DNA of 64,000 nt from Solilutibacter silvestris. GTDB taxonomy: Bacteria; Pseudomonadota; Gammaproteobacteria; Xanthomonadales; Xanthomonadaceae. The stretch is from assembly GCF_002895945.1 (NCBI RefSeq), contig NZ_NPZB01000001.1, positions 697,501-761,500 of the forward strand, written 5' to 3'. This document shows, in pieces, positions 21,523 to 45,016 of the stretch (position 1 is its first letter; every line of letters starts with the position of its first letter). The position numbers and the translations under genes were made by a program. The notes under the pieces were generated by a model. It did no database searches, was not told where the DNA came from, and worked only from the letters and a program-made list of their open reading frames with translations.

Positions 21523-22911
21523 ATGCCCGACGCCCCCTTGCATGTGGTCATCCTCGCCGCCGGCGAAGGCAAGCGGATGAAGTCCGACACGCCCAAGGTG
21601 CTGCAGAAGGTTGCGGGCCGGCCGATGCTGGCACATGTGGCCGACACCGCGCGCGCGCTGCATCCCGCCGGCATCCACGTGGTCTACGGCCACGGCGGCG
21701 ACAAGGTGCGCGCGGCATTCGCCGACCAGCCCGACCTGCAATGGGCGGAACAGGCGCAGCAGCTCGGCACCGGCCACGCGGTGATGCAGGCGATGCCGCA
21801 GGTGCCCGACGGTGCGCGCGTGCTGGTGCTGTACGGCGATGCGCCATTGTTCCGCGTCGAGACATTGCAGCATCTGCTGGCCGAACGCGGGCGGCTGGCG
21901 GGACTGGTCGCCGATCTCGAGGATCCCACCGGCTACGGTCGCATCATCCGCGATGCCGAAGGCCGCATCGGTGCGATCGTCGAGGAAAAGGACGCGACGC
22001 CCGAGCAGAGACGCATCCGCACCGTGAACGTCGGCGTGATCACCGCTGATGCCAGTGCGTTGCGCGGCTGGCTGGGACAGTTGTCCAACAGCAATGCGCA
22101 GAACGAGTATTACCTGACCGATGTGTTTGCCAAGGCCGCGGCCGATTTCAGCGCGGCGGAAATGGTGCATGTCGCCGATCCCGCGGAAACCGAAGGTGCC
22201 AACGATCCGTGGCAGCTGGCGCAGCTCGAGCGTGTGTACCAGCGTCGCGCTGTGCGCGCGCTATGCGTAGCAGGCATGCGTTTCGCCGACGTGGCGCGGG
22301 TGGACGTGCGCGGCACGGTGGAATGCGGACGCGATGTCGAGATCGATGTCGACGTGGTGTTCGAAGGCAAGGTACGTCTCGGTGATCGCGTGAAGATCGG
22401 GCCGTTCGTGCGATTGAAGGATGTCGATCTCGCCGCCGGCAGCGAAGTCCGTGCGCATTGCGATCTCGAGGGCGTGACGAGCGAGGGTGTGGTGCAGATC
22501 GGGCCGTTCGCGCGCCTGCGTCCCGGCACGGTGCTGGCCGATGGCGTGCATATCGGCAATTTCGTCGAGACCAAGAAAGTCACGATGGGCGTCGGCAGCA
22601 AGGCCAATCACCTGACCTATCTCGGTGATGCGGAGATCGGCGCGGGCGTGAACATCGGCGCCGGCACGATCACTTGCAACTACGACGGCGTGAACAAGTC
22701 CGTCACCACGATCGCTGACGGCGCGTTCATCGGTTCCAACAGTTCGCTGGTGGCGCCGGTCACCATCGGCAAGAACGCAACCATCGGTGCGGGCTCGGTG
22801 ATCACCACCGATGCGCCGGATGGCGAACTCACGGTCGCGCGCGGACGCCAGAGCACCCTGCACGGCTGGAAGCGACCGGTGAAGAAGCCGCCGATCAATC
22901 CGGCAGGCTGA
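21523..22911 (+). CDS. glmU: Bifunctional UDP-N-acetylglucosamine pyrophosphorylase / glucosamine-1-phosphate acetyltransferase
   Basis: 462 residues from the ATG at 21523, with AGGAACC upstream; an in-frame ATG at 21490 is possible. The N-terminal uridyltransferase domain has [18 protein letters not shown] and VLYGDAPLF. The C-terminal domain is a left-handed beta helix of hexapeptide repeats ending with [20 protein letters not shown]. Active-site residues of both domains are present ([20 protein letters not shown]). The enzyme makes UDP-GlcNAc in the cytoplasm for peptidoglycan and LPS. Its position behind the atp operon is common in this group. Its last 17 bases overlap the convergent kinase gene. 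Confidence 0.97.
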
Positions 22912-24202
22912 GGCTCACCATCAATCCGCCATCGCCGCGATTGGCCAGGCTCAGGCTGCCGCCATGCGCTTCGGCGATCTCGCGCGCCAATGCCAGGCCC
23001 AGTCCGGTGCCGTTGCGCTTGGTCGAATAGAACGGCAGCAGCGCCTGCGAGATCACGGTTTCGCTCATGCCCTTGCCGCGATCGAGAACGTCCAGTCGCC
23101 AGCCGTTCGGCAGACGTCGCACCTCGAGCGCGACGTCTTCCCCGGCGCCACCCGCTTCGTGCGCGTTCTTCAGCAGGTTGAGCAACGCTTGCTCCAGTTG
23201 CACGCGATCGATCATCAGGACGCCGTCGCGATGCGCGCTATCCCAGCGGAATGCGAATTGCTCCTGCAGCCCGCGCAGCATGTCACCGCAGACCACCGCC
23301 TCGCGACGCGGCGCCGGCAATTTCGCGAAGCGCGCATAACCGCGGATGAACTCCTCGAGGTGGCGGGCACGTTCCTCGATCACCCGCAGCGCTTCCGGCA
23401 ATCGCGCGGTCTGGTCGCGCTTCAACATTTCACCGGCGGAATGCGCCAGTGATGCGATCGGCGCCAGCGAATTGTTGAGTTCGTGGCTGATCACGCGGAT
23501 CACTTTCTTCCACGTCTGCACTTCTTGGCGGTGCAGTTCGGCGGTGAGCTGGCGCAGCAGGAACAATTCATGCGGGCGTCCGTTGAGGCGGAAGCGCCGG
23601 CGCGAGAGGTGGATGATGTCGTCGTCCTCGCCGTCACCCAGCGCGAACAGGGCATCGCCGTTCTGTGCAATGGCGTTGCGCAATGCTGGCGGCGTGTCCG
23701 CGATCAAGTCATCGAACGAGCGTCCCTCCAGCCTGCGGCCATCGCCGAGCAACTTGCGAGCAGAAAGATTGCCGAGGACGATGCGTTTGGTGGCGTCGAT
23801 CAGCACGATCGCGACCGGAGTGTTCTGCACCACGGTATCGAGCAGCAGTTCGCGCTGCACCAGTGCCTGGCGTTGCTCGCGCACGGTCTGGCCAAGCTGG
23901 TTGTGGGCAGCGACCAGCTCGCGCACCTCGTCGTTGTGCGGCCAGGCGATACCGAAACTGAAATCACCGTCGCGGAAGCTGTCGACGCTGCCGGCGAGCG
24001 CGCGATAGAGCGACTGGATGCGTGCGTGGAGTCGGTTGAGGTGCAGCAACATGACGGCGACGATGATCGCGCCAGTGAGCAGCGCCAGCCACGGACGACC
24101 TGTCTCCAATTGCACGACGAGTGCGGCCACGATCGCGACGATCGCGTAGAACATCGCAAACGCCGCCACCCGATTCCGCCACGATATGCGCAATGCGGCC
24201 AT
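22895..24202 (-). CDS. NtrB/NtrY-type sensor histidine kinase
   Basis: 435 residues. Two N-terminal membrane segments (about 12-32 and 37-55) flank almost no periplasmic loop, so it probably senses within or at the membrane. A HAMP-like helix ([20 protein letters not shown]) and a PAS domain (about 120-220) follow. The phospho-acceptor box is [19 protein letters not shown], the form typical of NtrB/NtrY-type kinases, and the ATPase boxes are [20 protein letters not shown] and [14 protein letters not shown]. It begins 1 base after the NtrC-type regulator stop, so the two form a pair. By position it should sense the substrate or state of the upstream ABC transporter. The C-terminus overlaps glmU. 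Confidence 0.92.
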
Positions 24203-24203
24203 G

Positions 24204-25532
24204 TCAGCGCCTCGGGATGCCGAGCCGCTCCATGCGGCGATACAGCGACTGGCGCGTCAATCCGAGCTCCGCTGCGGCTTGTGCGATTACGCCATGGTGG
24301 TCGCGCAATACCCGGACGATTTCGTCGGCGGGGATCTCCTGCGCATCGAGCATGACATCGGGCTCTGGGAGATCGAGCGCGGCAGCAGTGATCACCTGCT
24401 CCGTTGTCAGCAGGCCAGCGCGTTGCATGACGTTGCGCAATTCGCGCACGTTGCCCGGCCAGCGATGGCGCAGCAACGCGCGTTCGGCATCGGCAGCCAG
24501 CATGCGATCCGCGCCGAGAAAGTGGCGCGCCAACGGCAGGATGTCGGCGGGGCGCTCGGACAACGGCGGCAAACGCAGTTCGATCACGTTGAGGCGGTAG
24601 AACAGGTCTTGCCGGAAGGTGCCGTCGCGGATCATCGCGGCGAGATCGGCATTGGTCGCGCTCAACACGCGCACATCGACGCTGCGCTCGCGCGTGCTGC
24701 CGAGGCGAGTGAAGCGCCCGGTTTCGAGCACGCGCAGCAAGCGCGTTTGCCCAGCCGCGGGCAGGGTGCCGATCTCGTCAAGGAAGAGCGTGCCGCCGTC
24801 CGCGGCCTCGAAGCGACCTTCGCGTGCCTTGTTGGCACCGGTGTAGGCACCCGCTTCGGCACCGAACAATTCGGCTTCGATCAGTTCGCTCGGCAACGCG
24901 CCGCAATTCACCGCGACGAAGGGGCCGCTGCGCCCGGAATTCGCGTGGAGGATTTCCGCGATCTTTTCCTTGCCGCTGCCGTTGGGGCCGGTGATGAGCA
25001 CTGCCAACGGCGAGCGCGCGACCTGCACGGCCAGGCTCAACACGCGCTCGGTGGCATCGTCGGCATAGATCACGCCACGCAAGTCGTGTTCGCGCGACAA
25101 CGATGCTCGGCGTTCGCGGGCAACGCGCGCGGAACGCGAGAGTTCGCGCCGCGCTTCCGAGAGTTCCAACAGGTTGTTGACCGTGGTCAGCAGCTTGTGA
25201 TCGTCCCACGGCTTGCCGACATAGTCGGCGGCACCGGCCTTGATCACTTCGACCGCGCGTTCCAGTTCGGTCCACGCCGTCAGCAGGATCACCGGGACAT
25301 CAGGCCATTGCCCATGCAGGCGCTGGAACAATTCCGCGCCCTCGTCGCCGGAGGTGGTGTCGGCGTCGAAATTCATGTCCTGGATCACCAGGTCGATGTC
25401 GCCGCGCATCATGCGCGTGATGCCGGCATCCGGCGTGGTCGCGCCGACGGCATCGATGCCGTGGAGTGAAAACAGTAATTCCAGCGCGGTGATCACGCTG
25501 GAGTTGTCATCGATGACGAGAACAGTGGCCAT
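24204..25532 (-). CDS. NtrC-family sigma-54-dependent response regulator
   Basis: 442 residues. The receiver domain (1-120) has the acidic pocket Asp8/Asp9, the phosphorylation site Asp52 (VIQDMNF) and a Lys in GKPWDD. The AAA+ domain has Walker A GPNGSGKEK, the sigma-54 contact loop as GAYTGA (Tyr for the usual Phe) and Walker B GGTLFLDEIG. A Fis-type helix-turn-helix closes the protein (IAQAAAELGLTRQSLYRRM). It remodels the sigma-54 holoenzyme to open promoters. It lies 23 bases after the last permease gene and 1 base before the kinase. A near-perfect sigma-54 promoter sits in front of this operon at 32716-32733, so autoregulation is probable. Confidence 0.93.
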   Translation of the reverse strand: MATVLVIDDNSSVITALELLFSLHGIDAVGATTPDAGITRMMRGDIDLVIQDMNFDADTTSGDEGAELFQRLHGQWPDVPVILLTAWTELERAVEVIKAGAADYVGKPWDDHKLLTTVNNLLELSEARRELSRSARVARERRASLSREHDLRGVIYADDATERVLSLAVQVARSPLAVLITGPNGSGKEKIAEILHANSGRSGPFVAVNCGALPSELIEAELFGAEAGAYTGANKAREGRFEAADGGTLFLDEIGTLPAAGQTRLLRVLETGRFTRLGSTRERSVDVRVLSATNADLAAMIRDGTFRQDLFYRLNVIELRLPPLSERPADILPLARHFLGADRMLAADAERALLRHRWPGNVRELRNVMQRAGLLTTEQVITAAALDLPEPDVMLDAQEIPADEIVRVLRDHHGVIAQAAAELGLTRQSLYRRMERLGIPRR

Positions 25533-25555: not shown

Positions 25556-26773
25556 TCACGCGCTGCGGGTGGCGATCGCAGGCGAGATGGAAGCGCCACG
25601 CAACGCCGGCCCAAGTATCGCGAGCTGTCCGAGCAACCACAGCACTACCGCGCCAATCGGCAGGTAGGGCCACGGCAGGCGCGGCAGTTCGTATTTCGCC
25701 ATCAGCAGCTGGTTCATGCCGAACGCCAGCAGCATGCCAAGCACGATGCCGCCGCTGACGATGAGGAAGTTCTCGATCTGGAAATGGCGCAGGATATCGC
25801 CGCGGGTGGCGCCGAGTGCGCGCCGCACGCCGATCTGCTTGGTGCGTTGCTGTACCCAGAAGCTCACCAATCCGCCGATGCCGCAGGTACTGATCGCAAG
25901 CATGCAGAGACTGACGATGACCAGCAGCCAGACCACCGAGCGGTCACGGCCATAGCGCTGGTGGCGCATCTCCTCGAGCGTTTCCTTGCCGACGATGATG
26001 CGATCCGGGTCGGCCTTCAGCAGCACGGTTTCGGCTGCAGCCAACGTGCGGCCGCGATCCAGCGACGGGACACGAAGCAGATAGGATCCGTAGCGAGGTT
26101 TGACCGGCAACAGGATGCTGTCGTAACTGTGCACGCTGTCCTGAAATCCATCGGGTCGCATCAGGTCATCGATGATGCCGACGATGCGCGTGGGCGACTT
26201 ATCCAAATAGACGGATTTCCCGAGCGCATCACCAGCGGGAAACAGCCGGTTGGCGAGGCTGCGCGTGATGATGCCGACGGGGTAATCTATCTGGCTCATC
26301 ATGCCCTTGGCCTGGTCGGCATACTCCTCGTTGTTGAACCAGCGACCCTGCTGGAGTTTCAGTCCCAGGGTGTCGGCGAACCCGGGGCCGGCCATGCTCA
26401 TGCTGACTTCGAATTTGTGCGCATCATCTTCGGGTTTCAGGCCGATAGAGGTGCCCCACGAACTGCTGCCGTAGGGAAACTGGCCGGCCATGGTGGTCGC
26501 GGACACGCCGGGCAGGCCGCGCAGCAGGGCGAGATCGCGCTGGATCGCGGCATCGGCGCCAGGGCCGCGGTAGGCATCACCAAGATTCGCCGTCTGCAGG
26601 GCAACCAGTTCGCTTTCCGCCACGCCACTCAGACGCGTCATGCGATCGACGCGCGCCTTGATCACGTAGATGGAGTTGCACAGGATCGCGCAGCACACCG
26701 CGATTTGCAGGATGATCAGGATGACCGCGGTCTTGTGCCGGCGCAGTGCCTTGAAAACGGGTGCAATGTTCAT
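25556..26773 (-). CDS. ABC transporter permease (MacB/FtsX type), copy 2 of the 405-residue form
   Basis: 405 residues from the ATG at 26773 (MNIAPVFKALRRHKTAVILI); the longer frame upstream overlaps the neighbouring permease and is rejected. A first membrane helix (about 15-37) is followed by a large periplasmic domain (about 40-275) and three C-terminal helices: the FtsX/MacB topology. The motif QQRTKQIGVRRALGATRGDI after the second helix is the cytoplasmic coupling segment of MacB-type permeases. It closely matches the gene at 28111, including almost all of the last 100 residues, so the two arose by duplication. It lies 7 bases after the upstream permease. Confidence 0.9.
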   Translation of the reverse strand: MNIAPVFKALRRHKTAVILIILQIAVCCAILCNSIYVIKARVDRMTRLSGVAESELVALQTANLGDAYRGPGADAAIQRDLALLRGLPGVSATTMAGQFPYGSSSWGTSIGLKPEDDAHKFEVSMSMAGPGFADTLGLKLQQGRWFNNEEYADQAKGMMSQIDYPVGIITRSLANRLFPAGDALGKSVYLDKSPTRIVGIIDDLMRPDGFQDSVHSYDSILLPVKPRYGSYLLRVPSLDRGRTLAAAETVLLKADPDRIIVGKETLEEMRHQRYGRDRSVVWLLVIVSLCMLAISTCGIGGLVSFWVQQRTKQIGVRRALGATRGDILRHFQIENFLIVSGGIVLGMLLAFGMNQLLMAKYELPRLPWPYLPIGAVVLWLLGQLAILGPALRGASISPAIATRSA

Positions 26774-26780
26774 GCGCGAC

Positions 26781-28091
26781 TCACTGGCTCTTGAGTTGGA
26801 TGGCTGGTGCGACGCGCGAGGCGCGCCATGCCGGCAACGCGCCGGACAGCAGGCTGGCAGCGAATGCCAGCACGAACGCCAGCAGCAGCATCGGCAGGTC
26901 GAGGCGCACGAGTTGTGCATAACTGTCGGGTTGCTGGCGCACCAGCCAGGTTCCGAACGCCGCCAGTAATACGCCGATGACGCCGCCGACGAAACCGACG
27001 ATGGAGGCTTCCACCAGGCATTGCAGGAAGATGGCGCGACGCGATGCGCCCAACGCGCGTCGCACGCCGTATTCGCCGGAACGGCGCAGGAATTTGGCCA
27101 GCAGCAGGCCGATGGTGTTGAGCAGGCAGACCGCCAGGAAACCGAACGCCAGCCACATTTGCAGGCGCACATCCGACGGCACGGCCTTGCGCACCTCCAG
27201 CCATTCCATCACGCCGTGCAGGCGGGTATTCGGTGCGCGCTGGTAGCGTCCGGACTGCTTCTGCACGCGCGAATAGTTGTCGAGATATTCGCGATAGGCC
27301 GCGACTTTCTGCGGCGAATCCAGTTCCACCCAGTACTGCAGCCAGCCGCAGGGCACGTTGAGCCCTCTCGAATCATCTGCACCGAAATCATCCCAGCAAT
27401 TCATGCTGCCCTGGGTGTCCAGCTTGCGATCGAGTGCGGTCGAAATCGGCAGATAGAGATCCTCCATGTCGCCGTAGCGGTCGGAGGTCATGTCGAAGAA
27501 TTTCGGTTGCAGCGCCCATGGCTTGAGCACGCCGATGACGCGGAACGGCGCATCGCCTATCGCAAGCTCGCGGCCGACGCTGTTCTCGCCACCGAAATAC
27601 TTGTTGTTGAAGGCGTCGGAGAGCACCACCACTTGCGCTTTTGCCACATCATCGACCGCCCCCCACGGGCCACCAAAACGGAACGGTGCATCAAACATCG
27701 GGAAGAAGTCCGCCGAGGTATAGCGCCCCTGTGGGACCAGTTTGCGATGCGTCCGCGGATGTTCGACCACTGGTACGCCCGAAGTCATCATCGCCTGGCG
27801 ATCGCCGCGGTGCTCGTGCAGCAAGGCTTCGGCGTCGTAACGCGTCATCTGTTCGGGAGGTTCGGGGTCCGAATCGTCGGCCTTGTTTTTCGGCAGTGGG
27901 CGTGGGTCCAGCCGCGGATAGAACAGCTTGCCGCTCTTCTGCGGAATCGGATCGCCGGACAGTACGTGATAGACGGTCAGCGTCGTCATCGTCGCGCCGA
28001 TGCCCAGCGCGATCGCCAGCACCATCAGCGCGGTGAGGATGCGGTTGCGCTTGAAGCTGCGAATGGCGAGCTTGAAGTAGTAGGCGAGCAT
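26781..28091 (-). CDS. ABC transporter permease (MacB/FtsX type), copy 2 of the 435-residue form
   Basis: 436 residues. The N-terminal helix (about 19-41, LTALMVLAIALGIGATMTTL) and a periplasmic domain of about 230 residues are followed by three membrane helices with the coupling segment RRSGEYGVRRALGASRRAI and the ending LKSQ. It is the counterpart of the gene at 29350, sharing DPIPQKS, YTSADFFPMF and the C-terminal core. The periplasmic MacB_PCD-type region here carries a Pro/Asp/Glu stretch (DDSDPEPPEQ). It probably pairs with the 405-residue permease to form the membrane part of the exporter. Confidence 0.9.
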   Translation of the reverse strand: MLAYYFKLAIRSFKRNRILTALMVLAIALGIGATMTTLTVYHVLSGDPIPQKSGKLFYPRLDPRPLPKNKADDSDPEPPEQMTRYDAEALLHEHRGDRQAMMTSGVPVVEHPRTHRKLVPQGRYTSADFFPMFDAPFRFGGPWGAVDDVAKAQVVVLSDAFNNKYFGGENSVGRELAIGDAPFRVIGVLKPWALQPKFFDMTSDRYGDMEDLYLPISTALDRKLDTQGSMNCWDDFGADDSRGLNVPCGWLQYWVELDSPQKVAAYREYLDNYSRVQKQSGRYQRAPNTRLHGVMEWLEVRKAVPSDVRLQMWLAFGFLAVCLLNTIGLLLAKFLRRSGEYGVRRALGASRRAIFLQCLVEASIVGFVGGVIGVLLAAFGTWLVRQQPDSYAQLVRLDLPMLLLAFVLAFAASLLSGALPAWRASRVAPAIQLKSQ

Positions 28092-28110: not shown

Positions 28111-29334
28111 CTACACGCTGCGGGTGGCGATCGCTGGCGAGATCGATGCCGCGCGCAAGGCCGGCCACAGCACCGCCAGTTGTCCGAGCAGCCACAACAC
28201 CACAGCGCCGATCGGCAGGTAGGGCCAGGGCAGGCGCGGCAGATCGTATTTCGCCATCAGCAACTGGTTGATGCCGAAGGCCAGCGTCATGCCGAGGATC
28301 ACGCCGCCGGTCACGATCAGGAAGTTCTCGGTCTGGAAATAGCGCAGGATGTCGCCGCGGGTGGCGCCGAGCGCGCGACGCACGCCGATCTGCTTGGTGC
28401 GTTGCTGCACCCAGAAACTGGCGAGGCCGACGATGCCGAATGCCGTCACCATCAGCAACACGAAGGTCACGCTCGACAGCAGCCAGATCATCGCCTTCGG
28501 TTGAGCGTAATAGCGGTTGCGCAATTCCTCGAAGGTTTTCTGTTCGCCGATGATGCGATGGGCGTCGTTCTTCTGCATGGCGGCGACGGCAGCCTTCAGG
28601 ACTTCGCCACGGTTCACGCCCGGCTTGGTGCGGATGATGTACGGCACCATGGTGAACGGCATCCTGAACGGTGTCAGCACGGAATACTGCGTGCTTTCCA
28701 GGCTGGAATCACGACCCGGCCGCTGCAGGCGGTCGACGATGCCGACGATCGACATCGGCGTGGTGTCGAGGTACAGGGTTTTCCCGAGCGCATCCGAATC
28801 CGGGAACATGCGCTTGGCGTACGCCTCGGTGATGATGAGCGCACGTGGCATCGCTGCGGAAAGGGCGGCGCGATCCGGGACGTCGAAGTATTCCTCGGGA
28901 TTGAAGTTGCGGCCGCGGATGATGTGCGTGCCGAGCGTGCGCATCATGTCGTCATCGCCCATGTACAGCGTGGCATTCTCGCCGTTCACGCCGCGATCGA
29001 GCGACTTCGAGAAGTCGCTGTTCCACGAGCCGTTCTGCAACGGCGTCTGGTTGATCAGCGCCACCGATTCGACGCCGGGGATCGCGCGGATCGTTTCCTT
29101 GTCGGTACGGCTCAGGGCCAGCGCGTTGGCATCGCTGCCGATGCCGGACACCTGCAAGGAAGACAGGACGGATTCGTCGATGCCGAGCGGTGAATTGATC
29201 GAATCAATGCGCAGGCGCACCAGGTTGATGGCATTGCAGAGGATGGCGCAGGTCAACGCCACCTCCAGCACCAGGATGAAAACGGCCGACTTGTGGCGGG
29301 TCAGCGTCGAGAGGATCGGTCGGATCTGGTTCAT
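28111..29334 (-). CDS. ABC transporter permease (MacB/FtsX type), copy 1 of the 405-residue form
   Basis: 407 residues. Same architecture as the gene at 25556: N-terminal helix (about 17-40), periplasmic domain, three C-terminal helices, coupling segment QQRTKQIGVRRALGATRGDI and the ending SISPAIATRSV. The last about 100 residues are nearly identical between the two, and their DNA is clearly homologous, while the periplasmic domains diverge. This suggests a shared docking interface with the ATPase and different substrate or partner surfaces outside. It lies 15 bases after the upstream 431-residue permease. Confidence 0.9.
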   Translation of the reverse strand: MNQIRPILSTLTRHKSAVFILVLEVALTCAILCNAINLVRLRIDSINSPLGIDESVLSSLQVSGIGSDANALALSRTDKETIRAIPGVESVALINQTPLQNGSWNSDFSKSLDRGVNGENATLYMGDDDMMRTLGTHIIRGRNFNPEEYFDVPDRAALSAAMPRALIITEAYAKRMFPDSDALGKTLYLDTTPMSIVGIVDRLQRPGRDSSLESTQYSVLTPFRMPFTMVPYIIRTKPGVNRGEVLKAAVAAMQKNDAHRIIGEQKTFEELRNRYYAQPKAMIWLLSSVTFVLLMVTAFGIVGLASFWVQQRTKQIGVRRALGATRGDILRYFQTENFLIVTGGVILGMTLAFGINQLLMAKYDLPRLPWPYLPIGAVVLWLLGQLAVLWPALRAASISPAIATRSV

Positions 29335-29349: not shown

Positions 29350-30645
29350 TTATTGCGTCTTGAGCTGGATGGCGGGCGCGATGCGCATCGCGCGGAAGGC
29401 CGGCAGCAATCCCGCCAGCAATGTCGCGATGACGCCGAGCACGATGGTGAGCGCGAGCATCGCCGGGTCGAGATGGACGATCTCCGCGTAGTCCGTCGGC
29501 TGGTGGCGCACCGCCCACAAACCGAGCAGCGACAGCAACAGGCCGCCGACGCTGCCAACCAACCCGACCACGCCCGCTTCCATCAGGAACTGGATGAAGA
29601 TGTCGCGGCGGGTTGCACCGAGCGCGCGACGCACGCCGATCTCGCCCTGTTTGCGCAGGAACTTCGCCATCAACAAGCCGACGACGTTGACCAGGCAGAC
29701 CACCAGGAAGCCGAGCGCCAGCCATAGTTGCAGATGCGCATCCGACGGCACGATCTTGCGATAGTCCAGCCAGTCGGTGACGCTGCGCAGGCGCGCGTTC
29801 GGCGGCCGGCTGTAGCGGCCTGCGGCGCGCTGTTGTTCGGAATAGCGGGACAGGTAGGCCCTGAAATCATTCGCCTGCGTCGGCGACTCCAGCTCCACCC
29901 AGTATTGCAACCAAACGCAGGGCGCATTGAGGGAGGTGTTGTCGTCGTTGCTCGCCTTGAAGCAATCCATGTTGCCGTCCATGCCGAGCGAGAGATCGCG
30001 CGAGGTGCTGAACGGCAAATAGACTTCCTCGCCGTTGCCATAGCGCTGCGTATTGATGTCGTAATAGCGTGGATCCGGACGCCAATGCCCGGCGACGCCG
30101 ACCACGGTGAATGGCGTGCTCTGGATGCGAATGGTCTTGCCGACGCTGTTGGCGCCACCGAAGATCTTCTGGTTGAGTTCATCCGACAGCACCGCCACTC
30201 GCGCGCGCGATGCGTCATCGTTGGCGTTCCAGCCGTGGCCATAACGGATCGGTACCAGGAACATCGGGAAGAAATCGGCGCTGGTGAAGCGCATCCGTGC
30301 CGAGAATGGCGTCTGGTTGTCGATTTCGAGAGGAGCACTGCCGCCGACGGTAACGACCTGCGCCTTGGCGTGGCGTTGCGCCAGCAGCGTTTCGGCGTCG
30401 AAGCGACTGATGTCATACGGCGGCTCCTTGTCGCTGTTCTTGACGTCGGCCGGGTACATATCGAGCTGCACGCGGAACAGACGATCGCTTTTCTGCGGAA
30501 TCGGGTCACGCGACAACGTCTTGAACACGGTGAGGGTGGTCATGGTCGCGCCGATGCCGACCGCGAGCGTCAACACCATCAACACGGTGAGCGCGCGGTT
30601 CTGGCGCAGGCTGCGCCAGGCCAGGCTGAAGTAGTAGCCGAGCAT
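29350..30645 (-). CDS. ABC transporter permease (MacB/FtsX type), copy 1 of the 435-residue form
   Basis: 431 residues. N-terminal helix (LTVLMVLTLAVGIGATMTTL), periplasmic domain (about 45-290) and three C-terminal helices, with the coupling segment RKQGEIGVRRALGATRRDI. The N-terminal 60 residues match the gene at 26781 closely, including GIGATMTTLTV and DPIPQKS. It is the first permease after the ATPase, 5 bases downstream of it. FtsX-fold permeases of this type act as mechanotransmission exporters for peptides, lipids or lipoproteins rather than importers. Confidence 0.9.
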   Translation of the reverse strand: MLGYYFSLAWRSLRQNRALTVLMVLTLAVGIGATMTTLTVFKTLSRDPIPQKSDRLFRVQLDMYPADVKNSDKEPPYDISRFDAETLLAQRHAKAQVVTVGGSAPLEIDNQTPFSARMRFTSADFFPMFLVPIRYGHGWNANDDASRARVAVLSDELNQKIFGGANSVGKTIRIQSTPFTVVGVAGHWRPDPRYYDINTQRYGNGEEVYLPFSTSRDLSLGMDGNMDCFKASNDDNTSLNAPCVWLQYWVELESPTQANDFRAYLSRYSEQQRAAGRYSRPPNARLRSVTDWLDYRKIVPSDAHLQLWLALGFLVVCLVNVVGLLMAKFLRKQGEIGVRRALGATRRDIFIQFLMEAGVVGLVGSVGGLLLSLLGLWAVRHQPTDYAEIVHLDPAMLALTIVLGVIATLLAGLLPAFRAMRIAPAIQLKTQ

Positions 30646-30650
30646 GGCCG

Positions 30651-31367
30651 TCAGGCTCCGCTGGCGACGGTTGCAGCAGCCTTGCGCAATGGCGACTCGT
30701 GGCGGATGTCGGTGGCGATGCCATCGACGATGTGCACGTTGCGCTGCGCGCGCGCGGCGAGTTCCGGATCGTGCGTCACCATGACGATGGTGGTGCCGGC
30801 GGCGTTGATCTCCTCCAGCAATTCCATCACGCTGCGCGCCATCTGCGAATCGAGGTTGCCAGTGGGTTCGTCCGCCAGCAGCAGCTTCGGGCTACCGGCC
30901 AGTGCACGGGCAATCGCGGCGCGTTGCTGCTGGCCACCAGAGAGTTCGGCCGGATAGTGCTTCATGCGCGAGGCCAGGCCGACGTCCGCCAAGGCTTTTT
31001 CGATGCGTTCGCGGCGCTCCGCCGCCGCCATGCCGCGATAGCGCAGCGGCACATCGACATTGTCGAACAGGTTGAGATCGGGAATCAGATTGAAGCTCTG
31101 GAAGATGAAGCCGATCTTGCGATTGCGCAACTTGCTGCGGGCATCGTCCGAGAGGCCCTTGACGTTCTCGCCGTCGAGGAAATAATCGCCGCCGGTGAAG
31201 TTTTCCAGCAGACCGGCGATGTTGAGGAAGGTGGTCTTGCCCGATCCCGACGGTCCGGTGACGGCGACGAATTCGCCATCGCCGACGTGCAGGTCGAAGG
31301 CGCGCAAGGCGTGCGTCTCCACGACTTCGGTGCGGTAGACCTTGGTGATCTGCTTCATGTCGAGCAT
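30651..31367 (-). CDS. ABC transporter ATP-binding protein (MacB/LolD type)
   Basis: 238 residues. All motifs are intact: Walker A GPSGSGKTTFLN, the signature LSGGQQQRAAIARALAG, Walker B KLLLADEPTGNLDS and the H-loop in VTHDPELAARA. The sequence TKVYRTEVVETHALRAFDLH fits the LolD/MacB branch of ATPases, which power FtsX-type permeases. It is the only ATPase in a cluster with four permeases, so it probably serves both pairs. The adaptor gene precedes it by 41 bases. A second ATG at 31358 is possible. Confidence 0.94.
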   Translation of the reverse strand: MLDMKQITKVYRTEVVETHALRAFDLHVGDGEFVAVTGPSGSGKTTFLNIAGLLENFTGGDYFLDGENVKGLSDDARSKLRNRKIGFIFQSFNLIPDLNLFDNVDVPLRYRGMAAAERRERIEKALADVGLASRMKHYPAELSGGQQQRAAIARALAGSPKLLLADEPTGNLDSQMARSVMELLEEINAAGTTIVMVTHDPELAARAQRNVHIVDGIATDIRHESPLRKAAATVASGA

Positions 31368-31408: not shown

Positions 31409-32683
31409 TCAGTGAATTCGGATGTGTTCGTTGTTGCCGAAGTCCTCGGCACCGGAGATGACGACCTTGTCGCCCTCCTGCAGGCCGGAGACGATTTCGA
31501 TGGCGTCGATGCTGGCGGCACCAACCTTGACCGGATGGCGCGACGCGATCGAGCCATCCATCAACCAGGCTTGCGTGCTCGATTGGTCGAGGGCCGGGCC
31601 GCGTTCGGCCATCAGCACGTTGCGACGGGTATCGAGCAGGATGCGCGCAGACAGGCGTTGGCTCTGCCGCAGGCCGGGCGGTTGCTGACCGTCGGCGAAG
31701 CGCAAGCGTGCGCTCACCTCGCCGTTGACGACTTCCGGCGAGACCGCGATGACGTTGGCCGGATAGGTCTTGTTGTTGCCGCTGAGTTGCGCCGGCATGC
31801 CGATGGCAAGGTCGCGCGCGAAACTCTCCGGCACCTTGATCTCGACGTCGAAGCGCGACAGGTCGACCACGCTCAGCACCGGCGCATTCGCCAGCAGGTT
31901 GGAACGCGGCTGCACGAAGACCTGGCCGACCTGGCCATCGAAGGGCGCGCGGATCTTCAAGGCTTCGACCTGGCGGCGCAATTCCGTCGCCACCGCGCGC
32001 TGGCGATCGGCGAGCAGATGCTTGTTGCGCGCATCGAGCACCGAGCTGGCACCCTGCAATTTGTAATTGCGCTGCGCGCTCGACAGCCCGAGTTCCGCTT
32101 TCTTCATCGTGTCCTGCGCGGTGGCCAGCGTCACCTGCGGAATCGCGCCGCCCTCGTAGCCGCGCTGATAACGCTGCAGGTCGCGCGTCGCGGTGGTGTG
32201 GTCGATCTGCGCTTGGTCCAGCGATTTCTGCGCATTCGATCGCGCCAGTTGCGCGTCGAGCGTGGCGCGGCCGGCGTCGGCTTCCATGCTCGCCAGCGTC
32301 GATTCCTCCTGCGCCAGTTTCGAACGCAGCTCCGGACTGTCGATGTCGGCGAGCAGGTCGCCTTCCTTCACCGCGTTGCCCGCGACCACGTGCAGGTTCA
32401 CCGTGCCGCCAGCGATCGCGTAGAGGCTCGGGCTGTTCGATGCGATCACCCGGCCGTCGGCGGCGATGTCGCGCACCAGGTCGCCGCGCTTGACCACGGC
32501 GATGCGCACGCGCGAGGCGTCCACCGAGCGACCACCGGAGAGCCAGCGCATTCCCACCCAGCCGATCAATGCAATCAGGGCGATCGCGGCTGCGGTGATC
32601 GCGAGGATCCGCTTGCGGCGCGCGGGCGAGGGACGGCCGGAATCGAGGCGGGTGTCCTGGGCAGATGTGTCGCGAATGGCCAT
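31409..32683 (-). CDS. Periplasmic adaptor (HlyD/MacA-type membrane fusion protein)
   Basis: 424 residues from the ATG at 32683; longer readings start upstream of the predicted sigma-54 transcription start and are rejected. A basic stretch and one membrane helix (about 28-48, KRILAITAAAIALIALIGWV) anchor the protein. A barrel-sandwich/lipoyl half (RVIASNSPSLYAIAGGTVNL), a long coiled-coil hairpin (about 115-225, with repeated Ala/Gln/Leu/Asp) and a second lipoyl half (KIRAPFDGQVGQVFVQ) follow, then beta-barrel and membrane-proximal domains. This is the MacA/RND adaptor plan. It should link the inner-membrane permeases to an outer-membrane TolC-like channel, which is not in the window. It leads the eight-gene operon. 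Confidence 0.92.
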   Translation of the reverse strand: MAIRDTSAQDTRLDSGRPSPARRKRILAITAAAIALIALIGWVGMRWLSGGRSVDASRVRIAVVKRGDLVRDIAADGRVIASNSPSLYAIAGGTVNLHVVAGNAVKEGDLLADIDSPELRSKLAQEESTLASMEADAGRATLDAQLARSNAQKSLDQAQIDHTTATRDLQRYQRGYEGGAIPQVTLATAQDTMKKAELGLSSAQRNYKLQGASSVLDARNKHLLADRQRAVATELRRQVEALKIRAPFDGQVGQVFVQPRSNLLANAPVLSVVDLSRFDVEIKVPESFARDLAIGMPAQLSGNNKTYPANVIAVSPEVVNGEVSARLRFADGQQPPGLRQSQRLSARILLDTRRNVLMAERGPALDQSSTQAWLMDGSIASRHPVKVGAASIDAIEIVSGLQEGDKVVISGAEDFGNNEHIRIH

Positions 32684-32715
32684 GGCGCTATGGGTGAGGG
32701 AGCTCCCTTCCTCAT

Positions 32716-32733
32716 ACGCAAGGCGCGTGCCAA
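32716..32733 (-). promoter_or_regulatory. Sigma-54 (-24/-12) promoter of the ABC-transporter/two-component operon
   Basis: On the minus strand TTGGCACGCGCCTTGCGT contains TGGCAC-N5-TTGC, the RpoN consensus, with GG and GC correctly spaced. The predicted start is near 32707, about 24 bases before the adaptor ATG at 32683. The last regulatory genes of the operon encode an NtrC-type activator and its kinase, which is what such a promoter needs. Confidence 0.8.
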
Positions 32734-32775
32734 CGCCAAGCCATTGATCCGATTGGCTGAGTGCCGCCTTTACGA

Positions 32776-32808
32776 TGTCCGTCCAGCCGTGCGGACGTCC
32801 GCCGGACA
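32776..32808. promoter_or_regulatory. Inverted-repeat cluster, candidate enhancer for the NtrC-type activator
   Basis: Four GTCCG/CGGAC half-sites lie in 33 bases: 32777-32781, 32792-32796, 32797-32801 and 32803-32807, the outermost extended to TGTCCG and CGGACA. They form GTCCG-N10-CGGAC and GTCCG-C-CGGAC. The cluster is about 45-90 bases upstream of the sigma-54 promoter, where bacterial enhancer-binding proteins usually dock. It also lies just upstream of the divergent glmS gene, whose possible -10 box TAGAAT is at 32824-32829. Confidence 0.5.
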
Positions 32809-32858
32809 GTCGCCGCTGCCCGCTAGAATGTGCACTTTCCAGAAGGATGTGGACTCCC

Positions 32859-34691
32859 ATGTGTGGAATCGTCGGTGCGATCGCCAACCGTGACGTGGTG
32901 CCGGTGCTGGTCGAAGGGTTGAAGCGGCTGGAATACCGCGGCTACGATTCGTCCGGCATCGCCGTGGTCGAACGCGACAACGTGCGCCGCGTGCGCCGTA
33001 CCGGTCGCGTCATGGAGATGGAACAGGCAGCGATCGCCGAATCGTTCAATGCGCCACTTGGCATCGGCCACACGCGCTGGGCCACCCACGGCGGCGTGAC
33101 TGAACTCAATGCGCACCCGATGGTCAGCCACGGCGATCTCGCGCTGGTGCACAACGGCATCATCGAGAACCACGAAGCGCAGCGCGAACGCCTGCGCGGG
33201 CTCGGTTACGAATTCACCTCGCAGACCGATACCGAAGTCATCGCGCACCTGATCCATCACTATCTGGTGGGCGGCGCATCGCTGTTGCAGGCAGTGCAGA
33301 AGGCGGTCAAGGAACTCGAAGGCGCCTACGCGATCGCGGTGATCGATCGCCGCAGCCCGGATGTCATGGTCGCCGCGCGCATGGGCTGCCCGTTGCTGGT
33401 GGGCTTGGGCGATGGCGAGAACTTCGTCGCCTCCGATGTCTCCGCCATCATCCAGGCGACGCGCCGGGTGATCTTCCTCGAGGAGGGCGACACCGCCGAA
33501 TTGCGCTGCGATGGCGTGCGCGTGTTCGACCATCACGATCAGGAAGTGCAGCGCGACATCCACGTCTCCGACGTGTCGCTGGCCTCGCTCGAACTCGGCC
33601 CGTATCGCCACTTCATGCAGAAGGAAATCCATGAGCAGCCGCGCGCGCTGGCCGACACGGTGGAGGGTGTGATCGACGCCGGCGGCTTCGACCTGAGATT
33701 GTTCGGCGACGACGCGGCCGAAGTGTTCAAGGGTGTCGATTCGGTGCAGATCCTCGCTTGCGGCACCAGTTTTTACGCCGGCATGGTCGCGCGTTACTGG
33801 ATCGAAGCGCTGGCCGGCATTCCCTGTGCGGTCGATATCGCCAGCGAATACCGCTACCGGGACATCGTTGCCAACCCCAGGCAGTTGGTGGTGACGATTT
33901 CGCAGTCGGGTGAAACGCTCGACACCATGGAAGCGCTGAAGTACGCCAAGCAACATGGCATGCTCCGCACGCTGTCGATCTGCAACGTGCCGGAAAGCGC
34001 GATTCCGCGTGCCAGCAAGCTGGTGTTCTACACCCGTGCCGGTGCCGAGATCGGCGTCGCCTCGACCAAGGCGTTCACCACCCAGCTGGTCGCGTTGTTC
34101 ATCCTTGCCGCGGCACTGGCGAAGCAGAACGGTCGCCTCGATGCCGCGCGCGAACAGGCATTGATCGAAGAATTGCGCCATCTGCCGGGCAATGTGCAGT
34201 TTGCGCTCAACCTCGAACCGCAGATCGCGGTGTGGGCGGAACGCTTCGCGCCGAAGGAACACGCCCTGTTCCTTGGCCGCGGCGTGTTCTACCCGATCGC
34301 GCTGGAAGGCGCGCTAAAACTCAAGGAAATTTCGTACATCCACGCCGAAGCCTATCCGGCCGGCGAACTCAAGCACGGACCGCTGGCGCTGGTCGACAAG
34401 GACATGCCGGTGGTGGTGATCGCCACCAACGACGCCTTGCTGGAGAAGGTGAAATCCAACATCCAGGAAGTGCGCGCACGCGGTGGCGAGATGTTCGTGT
34501 TCGCCGATGCCGACACCAATTTCTCCGAGTCCGAGGGCGTCCACGTGATCCGCACGCCGCGCCATGCCGGAATGCTGGCGCCGGTGGTGCAGACCATCCC
34601 GGTGCAGTTGCTTGCTTATCACGCCGCATTGGCGCGCGGAACGGATGTCGACAAGCCGCGCAATCTCGCGAAGAGCGTGACTGTCGAATAA
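32859..34691 (+). CDS. glmS: Glutamine--fructose-6-phosphate aminotransferase (isomerizing)
   Basis: 610 residues from the ATG at 32859, chosen because the mature enzyme must begin with Cys (MCGIVGA); the frame is open upstream to 32775. The N-terminal glutaminase domain (1-240) carries the Cys nucleophile, [12 protein letters not shown] and [13 protein letters not shown]. Two SIS domains follow, with [30 protein letters not shown] and [17 protein letters not shown], ending NLAKSVTVE. It makes glucosamine-6-phosphate, the precursor for GlmU. Divergent from the exporter operon; its promoter region shares the inverted-repeat cluster. Confidence 0.97.
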
Positions 34692-34755: not shown

Positions 34756-37700
34756 TCAGAATTTGTAGCCCACGTTGACGCTGAAGACGCGACCGTAGTT
34801 GCTGGTGTAATCGCTGGCATCGCCGAGGAAACTGTTCGGGTCGTAGAACGGCAGGCGATTGAACAGGTTCTTCACCGTGAAGCCGACATGCACGTGCTTG
34901 TTCGGCTGCCAATTCAGGCTCAGGTTGGCCGTCCACCAGGCTGGCACGCCCTTGCACTGGCCGGGAGATACTGCGACGCCGCTTGCGGTGCAAGTGTCCG
35001 GATTGTTGTCGGCCTCATCGAAATGATCCCAGGCCCACTTGGTCTTGCCGACGTAGTTGAAGAAGAGACTGGTAGTGAATTGGCGATAGGTCCAGTCGGC
35101 GTTCAAGGTCGCACGCATCCTCGGGTTGCCGTAATAGCCGATGTAGTTGCCGTACGCCCAACCGGTGTCTTCGCCGTACCAAGCCTGGTTGCGGCGGGCG
35201 ATGGTCGCAGCCAAACCGATGTTCAACTTGCCGTAATCGCCCAGCGAGAAGCGGCTGCGCGCATCGATGTCGAAACCGTCAACCAGGGTGCGGCCGCGGT
35301 TCTTGTACTGGCCGATGACGCTGGCGACGTTGCCCACGCTGTAGGTCGGCAACGTGCCCGGGCAGGTCACGCCGCTGGTTGCCGCGTTGGCGCACATGTC
35401 GGCCAGCTGGGCCAGGTTGGCGCGGTCGGCGTCGGTGATCGGGAAACGCGTCCGCGCGATGATGTCTTCCGGCTTGGTGAAATCCGGCGCGACGATTTCA
35501 TTGCGACGGTAGACGAACCAGTAGTCGGCCGAGATCGACAGCCACTTGGCTGGCTCGATCACGAAGCCCAGCGTGCCGATCTTCGCCTTCTCCGGTTTCA
35601 GTTGCTGGTTGGGTTGGGTCATGCGTGCCACGGTGCGGCCGCAATCGGAATTCAGCATCGTATTGCCGAGGTCCACGTCGCCTGAGCGATTGGATTTCAG
35701 CAGCAGGTTCGCGATCGCATTGGTTTCGCTGCAACGGGTCTCGTCGCGATAGCCGCCGAGCTGTGCATACACGCCACCGGTGCCGGACTCGGCGAGGTTG
35801 GGCGCACGGAAACCTTCGGAGTAGGTGCCGCGCAACAGCAGTTCCGGCAGGGCTTGGTATTTCACGCCGATCTTCGGCGCGATATTGGTGCTGAAGTTCG
35901 GATACTTGTCCAGGCGCACCGCCGCGTCGACTTCCAATTTCTTGGTAATCGGAACAACCGTCTCGGCGAATAGCGCATAGGTGTTGCGCTTGCCATCGAA
36001 CCACGAACCGCCCTGCTGGGTGATCCGGCCGTTGGCTGCATCCGTGTTGCCGGGGGTGTAGAAGCTTTCGTAACTGGCATTGAAACCGAATGCCGCGCGC
36101 ACTTCGCCGGCCGGCAGTTTGAACAACGGACCTTCGATCTTGCCGTCGAGGGTGCTCAGGCGGGTCCACGACTGGATGTCGAAGGTCGGATAGGCCGCGC
36201 GCAGGAGTGCGGCATTGGCTGCGCTGTTTTCGCCGAACTTGTATGCCGGGTGATCGGAAATGATCACGCGACCCGTGCCCGGGTCGATGGTATACGGGCC
36301 GAATGCCTTCTCGAAGCCATCGAGGTCGACGTTGACGGTCTGGTAGGTGACCGAATGCGAACCTGCGCTGGCGAACGCGGTTTCCCAGTTCCAGTCGCCG
36401 ATGTTGCCGCGCAGTCCGCCCAGCACGCGATAGCTCTTGTCGGTGTTGCGCTGGCCGTAGTAGTGGTCGCCGACGTCCTGCATCAGGTATTGCAGGCCGA
36501 CCACGCCGCCCATCAGTGCCTTCAACTGCGGACTCGCCTTGTTGTATTCGTTGTTGGGGCCAAGGTAGGGATAGAAGAACTGGTTGACGTTGTTGCCGGT
36601 GTTGCGCGAGAACCAGCTGGTCGGATTGCCGGTGGTGGTGCCGTATGCACGCGGCGTGCCGCCGTTGGCACGCAGGTCGATATCGGTATAGGTCGCTTCG
36701 GCGAAAGCCTCGGTGTTCTCGCCGATCAGGAAATGCGCACTGACATAGGCGGTGGCGCGGTCCGATTTGGCGCCGGCGTCGATCTCGTTGTTGAGCCAGG
36801 TCTGCCAGACGCAGCGCGTGCCAGCGGCTTCGGTGATGACGTTGTTGCACCCTGGCGCGGCTTCCTGCTTGCGCTTGCCGGTGACGGGATCGAACGCGAA
36901 GTAGCTGCCGGGGTTGAACGCGCCGGGTGCACTGCCGGTATCGAGGCGGAAATTCTTGATGTAGTTCAGATTGTTGATGTAGTACTGCTTCGGCTTCTTG
37001 TCGTACCAGTCGCTCAACGGAATCGCGTCGCGGCGGTACAGGTTCAACGAGGCATAGACGTTGTAGCGGTCCTTGTCGAGGTCGCCGAAGCCGCCGGTGA
37101 TGCTGGCCTGGTGTTCGCCGTAGGTGCCGATGCGCGACGATTTGTCGGTGGTCGCGCTGACTTCCAGACCCCGGTACTCGCGCTTGGTGATCACGTTGAT
37201 CACGCCGGCCACCGCGTCGGTGCCGTACACCGCAGAGGCGCCGTCGGTCAGCACTTCCATGCGTTCGATCGCCGCGGCGGGAATCGCATCGATGTTGACG
37301 AACTGGGTCTGGAAGCCCGCCGGCGCGCCGTAGTACGACAGGCGACGACCGTTCAGCAGCACCAGTGTGCCCTGCGCACCGAGGCCACGAAGGTTGGCCT
37401 GTGACGCGCCGTCCGAGCCAGTGAAGAGCGACTTGAAATCCTGCTGCGCCGGCCGCGCGGCCGGGAGGTTGTCCAGCACCTGCAACAGGGTGCGGGCGCC
37501 CATGTTCTCGATTTCCTTCTTGCTGATGATCTGCACCGGCGACGCGGTTTCGGTGTCGGTGCGGCGGATGTTGGAACCAGTGACTTCGATGCGGCCAAGG
37601 TCGTTGGTCTTCTTTTCGTCCTTCTTTTCATCTTTCTTGTCGTCTTTCTTGATCTGGTCTTGCATGTCGTTCTTGCCCTGATCTTGCGGCACCTCCTGTG

Positions 37701-37785
37701 CGGCGAGTGGACCGGCGGCCAGAACGGTGGCCAAGGCAATGGACAGGCTGGTCAGGGCGATGCGTTTTTTATCCGATCTGGACAT
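34756..37785 (-). CDS. TonB-dependent receptor of the GalNAc locus
   Basis: 1009 residues from the ATG at 37785 (MSRSDKKRIALTSLSIALAT), with a signal peptide ending near residue 29. A highly charged linker (about 33-53, repeated KDDKKDEKK) separates it from the plug domain: GRIEVTGSNIRRTDTETASP at its start, GQATLRGLGAQ-like SQANLRGLGAQ and GASAVYGTDAVAGVINVITK. The barrel follows, ending VFSVNVGYKF with the terminal Phe needed for assembly. It should import a large ligand across the outer membrane. It follows the GH31 gene by 80 bases on the same strand, the place held by the AgaO receptor in Shewanella GalNAc loci, so a GalNAc-containing oligosaccharide is the likely cargo. Confidence 0.9.
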   Translation of the reverse strand: MSRSDKKRIALTSLSIALATVLAAGPLAAQEVPQDQGKNDMQDQIKKDDKKDEKKDEKKTNDLGRIEVTGSNIRRTDTETASPVQIISKKEIENMGARTLLQVLDNLPAARPAQQDFKSLFTGSDGASQANLRGLGAQGTLVLLNGRRLSYYGAPAGFQTQFVNIDAIPAAAIERMEVLTDGASAVYGTDAVAGVINVITKREYRGLEVSATTDKSSRIGTYGEHQASITGGFGDLDKDRYNVYASLNLYRRDAIPLSDWYDKKPKQYYINNLNYIKNFRLDTGSAPGAFNPGSYFAFDPVTGKRKQEAAPGCNNVITEAAGTRCVWQTWLNNEIDAGAKSDRATAYVSAHFLIGENTEAFAEATYTDIDLRANGGTPRAYGTTTGNPTSWFSRNTGNNVNQFFYPYLGPNNEYNKASPQLKALMGGVVGLQYLMQDVGDHYYGQRNTDKSYRVLGGLRGNIGDWNWETAFASAGSHSVTYQTVNVDLDGFEKAFGPYTIDPGTGRVIISDHPAYKFGENSAANAALLRAAYPTFDIQSWTRLSTLDGKIEGPLFKLPAGEVRAAFGFNASYESFYTPGNTDAANGRITQQGGSWFDGKRNTYALFAETVVPITKKLEVDAAVRLDKYPNFSTNIAPKIGVKYQALPELLLRGTYSEGFRAPNLAESGTGGVYAQLGGYRDETRCSETNAIANLLLKSNRSGDVDLGNTMLNSDCGRTVARMTQPNQQLKPEKAKIGTLGFVIEPAKWLSISADYWFVYRRNEIVAPDFTKPEDIIARTRFPITDADRANLAQLADMCANAATSGVTCPGTLPTYSVGNVASVIGQYKNRGRTLVDGFDIDARSRFSLGDYGKLNIGLAATIARRNQAWYGEDTGWAYGNYIGYYGNPRMRATLNADWTYRQFTTSLFFNYVGKTKWAWDHFDEADNNPDTCTASGVAVSPGQCKGVPAWWTANLSLNWQPNKHVHVGFTVKNLFNRLPFYDPNSFLGDASDYTSNYGRVFSVNVGYKF

Positions 37786-37865
37786 CACTGATTTCTCGTT
37801 TGACAGAAGGCGTCGCTCTGGCAATGCCGATGCGACAGGGGGAAGTGGGATGTTCGAAGCGGGAG

Positions 37866-41261: not shown

Positions 41262-41535
41262 GTGAAAGCAATCGCTTGACTCTAGGGCAGGGATTTTCCG
41301 AATGTCAATCAAAATGAAACTAAATTGCAAGATTAATGGGGAAAACGAAAGATCGCAGCGCCACTTTATTTCGAATTACCGCATTCAGGATTAGGGCAGA
41401 GGCCATCAAGCCATTGCGAGTGCGTATACGGCGCATGGATCATTTGGCGGCAATTCGAAACTTTTCATTTATTTTCGATATTTGACATTTCGAAAGAAAA
41501 TGGCCATCGTGGTCCCGTCCCATCGAGTTTCGACC
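41262..41535. promoter_or_regulatory. AT-rich divergent control region of the GalNAc locus with AgaR-like operator candidates
   Basis: 274 bases, clearly richer in A+T than its surroundings, between the GH31 and agaS starts. TTTCATTTATTTTC (41463-41476, plus) and TTTCATTTTGATTG (41319-41306, minus) resemble the TTTCRTTTYRTTTY core known for E. coli AgaR, one site before each transcription unit. TTCGAA palindromes recur at 41370-41375, 41454-41459 and 41489-41494, the last inside ATTTCGAAAG. AAGC-GATT-GCTT lies at 41266-41277, minus strand. I see no clear sigma-70 hexamers with standard spacing. Confidence 0.5.
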
Positions 41536-43636: not shown

Positions 43637-43678
43637 CTGTTCGCGCCGGACCCCAACACGATCAATACGGAGCATCAC

Positions 43679-44980: not shown

Positions 44981-45016
44981 GCTTCCCCTTTGCCGCGAAC
45001 AGCGAACCGTCCCGAC

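Follow-up and report, generated by a model that had tools for sequence, protein, structure and literature searches.

Introduction

Several NtrC-family two-component systems, among them ZraSR, GlrKR/QseEF and AtoSC, are encoded next to a sigma-54 target operon. The locus described here lies in a window of Solilutibacter silvestris DNA (the window being the whole stretch analysed, 64,000 nucleotides) and resembles these systems in three ways: its response regulator (RR) is built of a receiver, a GA[FY]TGA AAA+ domain and a Fis-type HTH, the gene of the sensor kinase (HK) adjoins that of the regulator, and enhancer-like sites lie upstream of a -24/-12 element. In contrast to ZraSR, GlrKR and AtoSC, this system shares its gene run with its target, a MacB-like exporter; its enhancer has the form TGTCCG-N0-2-CGGACA, and an IHF-like box almost abuts the -24 element. 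The RR also stands apart from NtrC, AtoC, the PEP-CTERM regulator, GlrR and ZraR, as it matches the corresponding profiles far below their cut-offs.

The transporter is similar to MacAB, ADOP and the darobactin exporter DarBCD in combining an adaptor, a MacB/LolD-type ATPase and MacB_PCD + FtsX permeases, but its matches to these named systems fall below curated cut-offs, its ATPase and permease halves are separate genes, and there are two permease pairs. A further point of comparison is offered by the Bce modules of Gram-positive bacteria, which use an OmpR-type regulator. Like them, the present locus encodes an ABC transporter (here with FtsX-type permeases) together with a two-helix kinase almost devoid of a sensor loop; unlike them, it has an NtrC-type RR with sigma-54 and a MacB-like exporter with a periplasmic adaptor, and a complex of its transporter and kinase would be hypothetical. 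The structure of a Bce-type transporter-kinase complex has been solved (PMC10314905).

Finally, there are activators whose sigma-54 contact loop has been lost, such as TyrR, DhaR and HupR, and activators with altered loops have also been described in the sigma-54-less genomes of Fusobacterium nucleatum and Jannaschia (PMC3162934). One relative of our source genome, G034, is comparable to these activators in that its RR has an altered GAFTGA loop and the genome has no detectable rpoN. It differs from them in that the ancestral operon can be traced, with the sigma-54 promoter found in 113 family loci, and in that the enhancers and the IHF-like box are kept in G034 while the -24/-12 element is gone. 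The component parts of the locus are all of known kinds; a literature search, with few subscription journals, found no description of the operon, the enhancer or the G034 case among the titles and abstract openings listed.

An exporter operon that ends in an NtrC-type regulator and its kinase

An earlier note on this DNA had described a run of eight genes ending with an NtrC-type regulator and its kinase. The run is indeed on a single strand, from 32683 to 22895 (9.8 kb), in the order adaptor, ATPase, four MacB/FtsX-type permeases, RR (with a GAYTGA loop) and HK:

31409..32683, minus strand: periplasmic adaptor (HlyD/RND-type membrane fusion protein), first gene; RND_mfp and HlyD_3 domains
30651..31367, minus strand: ABC ATPase (MacB/LolD/DarD-like)
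29350..30645, minus strand: permease P1; MacB_PCD + FtsX, N-terminal half of ADOP (TIGR03434), below cut-off
28111..29334, minus strand: permease P2; C-terminal half of ADOP, below cut-off
26781..28091, minus strand: permease P3, second P1-type protein
25556..26773, minus strand: permease P4, second P2-type protein
24204..25532, minus strand: RR, NtrC-type response regulator; receiver, AAA+ with GAYTGA loop, Fis-type HTH
22895..24202, minus strand: HK, sensor kinase; two membrane helices, PAS, HisKA (just under cut-off), HATPase_c
32859..34691, plus strand: glmS, divergent neighbour across the enhancer region, outside the operon

The RR matches PF00072, PF00158 and PF02954, which gives it the full receiver, GA[FY]TGA AAA+ and Fis-type HTH architecture, and its residues D9, D52, T85 and K107 are invariant in an alignment of 11 rows (A1). 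It holds one of four strong sigma-54-activator domains in the source genome. In the window HK the PAS and kinase domains follow the helices; six kinases were aligned, and in all 13 kinases scanned the N-terminal hydrophobic segments lie close together with almost no outer loop.

As judged from its sequence, the transporter is MacB-like in its working, but it is not MacB: ATPase and permease are separate genes, and the best match to the MacB equivalog NF007826 scored 208.9 bits against a cut-off of 966. Nor is it ADOP, whose model TIGR03434 describes one duplicated permease of about 800 residues; here the match is split over two genes, with 159-193 bits each against 622. The best NCBIfam match of the ATPase is DarD, likewise below its cut-off. 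As the permease matches (ADOP, MacB halves) and the ATPase match (DarD) all fall below cut-offs, the cargo cannot be named. The second permease pair, P3/P4, occupies 28091-25556 on the minus strand; some large genomes have three pairs, and there the distance from the adaptor down to the RR can reach 16 kb.

Of the first 101 loci, 92 gave a glmS match close by, a count obtained with an out-of-frame query. A link to glmS was considered and dropped, as none of 20 order-level stretches shows glmS.

A conserved sigma-54 promoter upstream of the adaptor gene

The promoter sequence that had been proposed for this operon, TGGCAC-N5-TTGC, is present exactly, on the minus strand at 32732-32718 and with a GG-GC spacing of 10 bp. 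Its distance from the adaptor gene, previously given as 24-35 bases, needs correcting: the element spans 49 to 35 bases before the ATG (32683). Judging by the spacing from the GC, transcription would be expected to start near 32706.

32718..32732, minus strand: -24/-12 (sigma-54) promoter TGGCACGCGCCTTGC; GG at 32731-32730, GC at 32719-32718

Could this be a chance match in front of an ordinary sigma-70 operon? Exact matches are not rare, with two in the window (32732-32718 and 50721-50707) and at least seven more on the plus strand of the source genome among the matches listed. When up to two mismatches are permitted, the window holds 102 matches against a shuffle mean of 92.5, i.e., about the chance level. 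Because the exact pattern is present twice in the window, single-site statistics were rejected as evidence, and we turn to relatives. Across the whole source genome (G000), TGGCAC-N5-TTGC with at most one mismatch occurs 331 times, compared with 198 times for the reversed pattern. The source genome has one rpoN profile match (E 1.7e-56).

Adaptor matches were found in 174 of 198 family genomes, the source genome included. Stretches were fetched from 113 of the 173 other adaptor-positive genomes, namely the strongest matches, 20 more distant ones, 12 more, and G034. Setting G034 aside leaves 113 rpoN-positive family loci, i.e., the window and 112 others. The search of related genomes that had been suggested as a check on the promoter was run on these loci, and all 113 carry TGGCA[CT]-N6-TGC no more than 220 bp from the adaptor start. 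At 1,316,219 other same-strand positions of those loci the pattern turned up 14 times, which amounts to 0.0023 per 220 bp. At least 8 of the 10 consensus bases are present in the promoters of 101/101 loci, and an rpoN profile match was obtained in 195 of the 198 family genomes, including all 113 counted here. The sole examined close relative without the promoter is G034, which apparently lacks rpoN.

Outside the family, RR matches were found in 166 of 299 genomes drawn from the order (family included), and 20 stretches around RR matches outside the family were sampled; the rpoN search covered the family genomes. Fifteen of these 20 stretches have an adaptor in range, with the promoter pattern in 15/15, and the remaining five have no adaptor in range.

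The promoter match thus exceeds chance, because it is conserved across the family loci. Its presence in 113 of 113 loci, where 0.0023 were expected per locus, and the joint decay of the -24/-12 element and the regulator's loop in G034, a genome without detectable rpoN, leave the reading as a chance match in an ordinary sigma-70 operon with hardly any credibility. A sigma-54 promoter in front of the exporter operon is supported by these sequence comparisons.

Enhancer palindromes and an IHF-like box

Two elements that were absent from the earlier note, enhancer palindromes and a putative IHF-like box, strengthen the interpretation of the promoter.

32770..32812, minus strand: enhancer (upstream activator) region with putative RR sites, from motif conservation
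32808-32796, minus strand: palindrome TGTCCGGCGGACG, one mismatch; half-site CGGACA at 32781-32776
32737..32749, minus strand: IHF-like box GATCAATGGCTTG, one mismatch to WATCAANNNNTTR, 4 bases upstream of TGG

In relatives, palindromes of TGTCCG and CGGACA are repeated between glmS and the promoter. TGTCCG-N0-2-CGGACA was found exactly in 38 of 101 loci, with at most one mismatch in 81 and with at most two in 95, leaving 20 loci without it at up to one mismatch and six without it even at up to two. With spacers of 0-6 the counts rise to 42, 84 and 99 of 101 at zero, up to one and up to two mismatches, respectively, and only L153 and L161 have no palindrome within two mismatches; shuffled sequences gave at most 3 of 101 loci within one mismatch under the same spacers. 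The distances between half-sites show further peaks near 10-12 and 20-23, which would be expected if the sites lie on the same face of the helix. The motif was defined from relatives, because the source genome holds no exact copy of TGTCCG-N0-2-CGGACA and the copy in the window has one mismatch. A half-site, TGTCCG or CGGACA, lies in the 130 bp ahead of the promoter in 14 of 15 order-level operons; the palindrome itself is exact in five and has three or more mismatches in seven, and on these counts it is a trait of the family more than of the order.

The IHF consensus is WATCAANNNNTTR. A box within one mismatch of it is present in 72 of 101 loci, and 71 of these boxes start 17 or 18 bases upstream of TGG, compared with 11 of 101 loci for the reverse orientation and at most four for shuffles; the other 29 loci have no box within one mismatch. 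To our knowledge, a position 4-5 bp upstream of the -24 element is nearer than in other sigma-54 promoters.

The regulator as probable activator of its own operon

What stands of the earlier interpretation is the sigma-54 promoter with the operon's own NtrC-type RR as its very probable activator; the self-amplifying loop that went with it is plausible. The comparisons leave little doubt that the RR would drive the operon through sigma-54, given that the -24/-12 element and the enhancer are conserved, that rpoN is found in all 113 counted genomes, and that promoter and loop were lost jointly in G034.

RR matches were obtained in 163 of the 198 family genomes. By hand tally at the search thresholds, 162 genomes have both adaptor and RR, 12 the adaptor alone, one the RR alone and 23 neither. 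The single RR-only genome, G142, is 71% complete; four of the adaptor-only genomes (G004, G027, G049 and G059) have weak adaptor matches, and most of the others are incomplete or fragmented assemblies. The reading frame of the RR is broken in G177. G192 (L184) looks like a genuine exception: the promoter, a truncated permease match and the HK are present, with no RR found between permease and HK, which is possibly due to a recent RR deletion or an assembly fault. The loops of 129 RRs read GAYTGA in 123, GAFTGA in two, GAYTSA in two, GAYTGS in one and GAFAGV in one, the loop threonine being lost only in G034. The GAYTSA variants (L151 in G197 and L168 in G148) and the GAYTGS variant (L123) lie beside an intact -24/-12 element.

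We also scanned 20 other genomes for the exact palindrome, which gave 55 sites, the operon included, compared with 17 for a reversed control. From these 55 sites, the 20 first-listed places, of which five are the operon, were inspected together with another 20 stretches. Most of the inspected sites away from the operon had no -24/-12 element nearby; [TC]GGCA[CT]-N6-TGC gave weak CGGCAY matches within 300 bp (L322 and L348). Weaker promoters may have been missed by this pattern, because one element, GGGCATGAATATTGC, was found by eye. It is a weak -24/-12 sequence in G134 (L339, around 1500-2100), directly after the end of a kinase-like gene, and together with tandem palindromes 21 bp apart it precedes a paralogous ATPase gene; L339 is a possible second target.

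These data bear on a different explanation, in which the promoter is sigma-54-dependent, but is driven by another activator of the genome, and the neighbouring RR has other targets. The source genome does have three more strong sigma-54-activator domains, and G192 retains the promoter though no RR was found beside it. Nevertheless, we regard this explanation as quite improbable: the enhancer motif is rare elsewhere (55 against 17 control sites in 20 genomes) and most inspected copies have no -24/-12 element, RR and adaptor co-occur, and G034 retains RR and enhancers with no other strong activator domain found.

A natural experiment in a genome without detectable rpoN

The rpoN profile search found no match in three of the 198 family genomes, G014 (82% complete), G080 (86%) and G034 (99%). 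A repeated search of G034 with E values up to 10 returned fragments of at most 15.3 bits, below the cut-off of 22.8. This genome (L170) retains the adaptor, the ATPase, two permeases, the RR and the HK, and its upstream region retains TGTCCACTCGGACA and TGTCCGCGGACA, with centres 21 bp apart, plus the IHF-like box. In contrast to these retained elements, nothing like TGGCAC-N5-TTGC was found, the best unconstrained match in 200 bp having 6 of 10 bases; the region does contain a TTGACA, 33 bases ahead of the adaptor ATG. The loop of the RR has become GAFAGV, and its Walker motifs and HTH are retained, as read by eye. The RR is also the only strong sigma-54-activator domain in G034 (201.7 bits), four others scoring 19 to 29 bits.

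A tree built from 37 RRs places G034 as the sister of the source genus, with a support of 0.996. Its branch length is 0.71, because of which long-branch effects are possible, and the tree was midpoint-rooted, since the order-level rows formed no single clade. The G+C content of the operon stretch of G034 is 0.549, similar to the 0.533-0.576 of seven other G034 stretches (one of which, L361, lies within the operon stretch).

Decay of the -24/-12 element and of the loop in the absence of rpoN, with the enhancers kept, is what would be predicted if the RR acts through sigma-54, and gives that reading its best support. The G034 circuit may even have outlived its sigma factor. The RR would then have stayed under selection, with its ATPase motifs, HTH and enhancers kept and its sigma-54 contact loop lost, and would now act on this operon through a sigma-70 promoter, for which the TTGACA is a candidate; we give this scenario an even chance. 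If true, one could trace in G034 how a sigma-54 activator turned naturally, at a single operon, into a sigma-70 regulator, since 113 family genomes still have the ancestral promoter. The lineage makes testable what becomes of an activator and its operon once the required sigma factor is lost.

A proposed mechanism and its signal

Taken as a whole, the locus is likely to encode, together with a MacB-like exporter, a local sigma-54 switch dedicated to it. In the proposed sequence of events, the HK, with two helices and almost no outside loop, would sense something in or at the membrane and phosphorylate the NtrC-type RR, which would bind enhancer sites (TGTCCG/CGGACA) lying 38-80 bp ahead of the promoter. 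IHF would probably bend the DNA, and the RR, using its GAYTGA loop and ATP, would open RNA polymerase-sigma-54 at TGGCAC-N5-TTGC. The whole 9.8-kb run would then be transcribed with RR and HK last, raising the level of both and giving positive feedback. Conservation of the promoter, the enhancer and the IHF-like box, the gene order and the joint decay without rpoN are read from the genomes compared; RR binding, phosphorylation and read-through to RR-HK, and hence the loop, are what we infer from them.

The almost loopless membrane part of the HK would fit a sensor that works within the membrane or via the transporter. A variant of the signal step is that the kinase has no ligand of its own and reads the activity of the transporter, i.e., flux sensing as in Bce modules. 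It would agree with the closely spaced hydrophobic segments and near absence of an outer loop in the 13 kinases that were scanned, the placement of the HK gene after the RR and transporter genes in loci holding all of them, and the precedent of the solved Bce-type transporter-kinase complex (PMC10314905). We consider the variant tentative and rather unlikely, given that the transporter is MacB-like with an adaptor, its BceAB membership is putative and the regulator is NtrC-type.

On our preferred reading of a local sigma-54 switch, a conserved NtrC-type system (162 of 198 family genomes with adaptor and RR) gains a defined target, an enhancer, a probable IHF site and a promoter, so that a single reporter would serve to look for its signal and cargo. 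The near-loopless HK suggests that it reads the membrane or the transporter itself; a Gram-negative sigma-54 circuit would then follow Bce-like logic.

Self-amplification or feed-forward control

Self-amplification through RR and HK on the same transcript is plausible, and on the gene arrangement we lean towards it. In all 123 loci that have adaptor and RR, the RR lies downstream in the same orientation, and the HK follows the RR in 123 of 123 loci holding these two. In the window, a gap of 23 bp precedes the RR and one of 1 bp separates it from the HK. In the 250 bp before the RR, neither the sigma-54 pattern nor the exact palindrome was found in any of 102 loci. Across loci, a median of about 125 bp separates the RR from the end of the permease match; the 95th percentile is 2 kb, and the largest distances are several kb. 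Where the gap is large, there is room for another promoter.

A clear exception to the usual arrangement is G101, in which RR-HK lie beside glmS, 270 kb from the transporter genes, which retain promoter and enhancers. No sigma-54-like site (at least 8 of 10) was found in the 860 bp upstream of RR-HK there. The RR of G101 is thus not made by read-through, and feedback is not obligatory; because the RR can be supplied independently, the loop is plausible rather than proven.

G101 also speaks for a feed-forward-only arrangement, in which the RR controls the exporter through sigma-54 and RR-HK are made from a constitutive promoter of their own, with no self-amplification; permease-RR distances with a median of about 125 bp, and up to several kb, would likewise allow it. 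The gaps of just 23 bp and 1 bp in the window count against it, as does the fact that the RR comes after the transporter genes in each of the 123 loci holding it and the adaptor, and a crude scan with chance-level counts found no sigma-70-like site on the operon strand between 22700 and 33100. On balance, feed-forward control without self-amplification appears possible but doubtful.

Related operons beyond the order and other contents of the window

A contig profile scan outside the order (80 loci among the matches listed) returned mostly activators without this operon. Among the matches listed, L241, L243 and L244 have adaptor, ATPase and permeases before the RR; L244 has no HK match, its stretch ending just after the RR. 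In L242 there are permeases, RR and HK, but neither an adaptor nor an ATPase match in range. Only the adaptor match is missing from L245 and L246, which hold ATPase, permeases, RR and HK, and L247 has adaptor and permease matches after RR-HK. The locus L243, from Pseudoalteromonas sp. XMcav2-N, has the same gene order as the window, with GTCCGCGGACAC and TGGCACGAGTCTGGT upstream of the adaptor and an imperfect -12 box; this operon was possibly transferred.

Elsewhere in the window, Wadjet-type defence genes jetD (PADLOC JetD, E 4.9e-144) and jetC (1360 bits) are found at 45810-50523 on the minus strand, and the ORFs upstream of jetC to about 53300 may be other jet genes. The second exact TGGCAC-N5-TTGC match (50721-50707, minus strand) lies 183 bases upstream of the jetC ORF start (50523) and is probably due to chance. 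Beside glmS, the region 34756-45793 encodes a TonB receptor, a GH31 hydrolase with an NPCBM domain, a SIS protein, a ROK kinase, a GatZ/KbaZ-like protein and a DeoR-type regulator. This is apparently an amino-sugar utilisation cluster, and our guess would be a GalNAc-type substrate.
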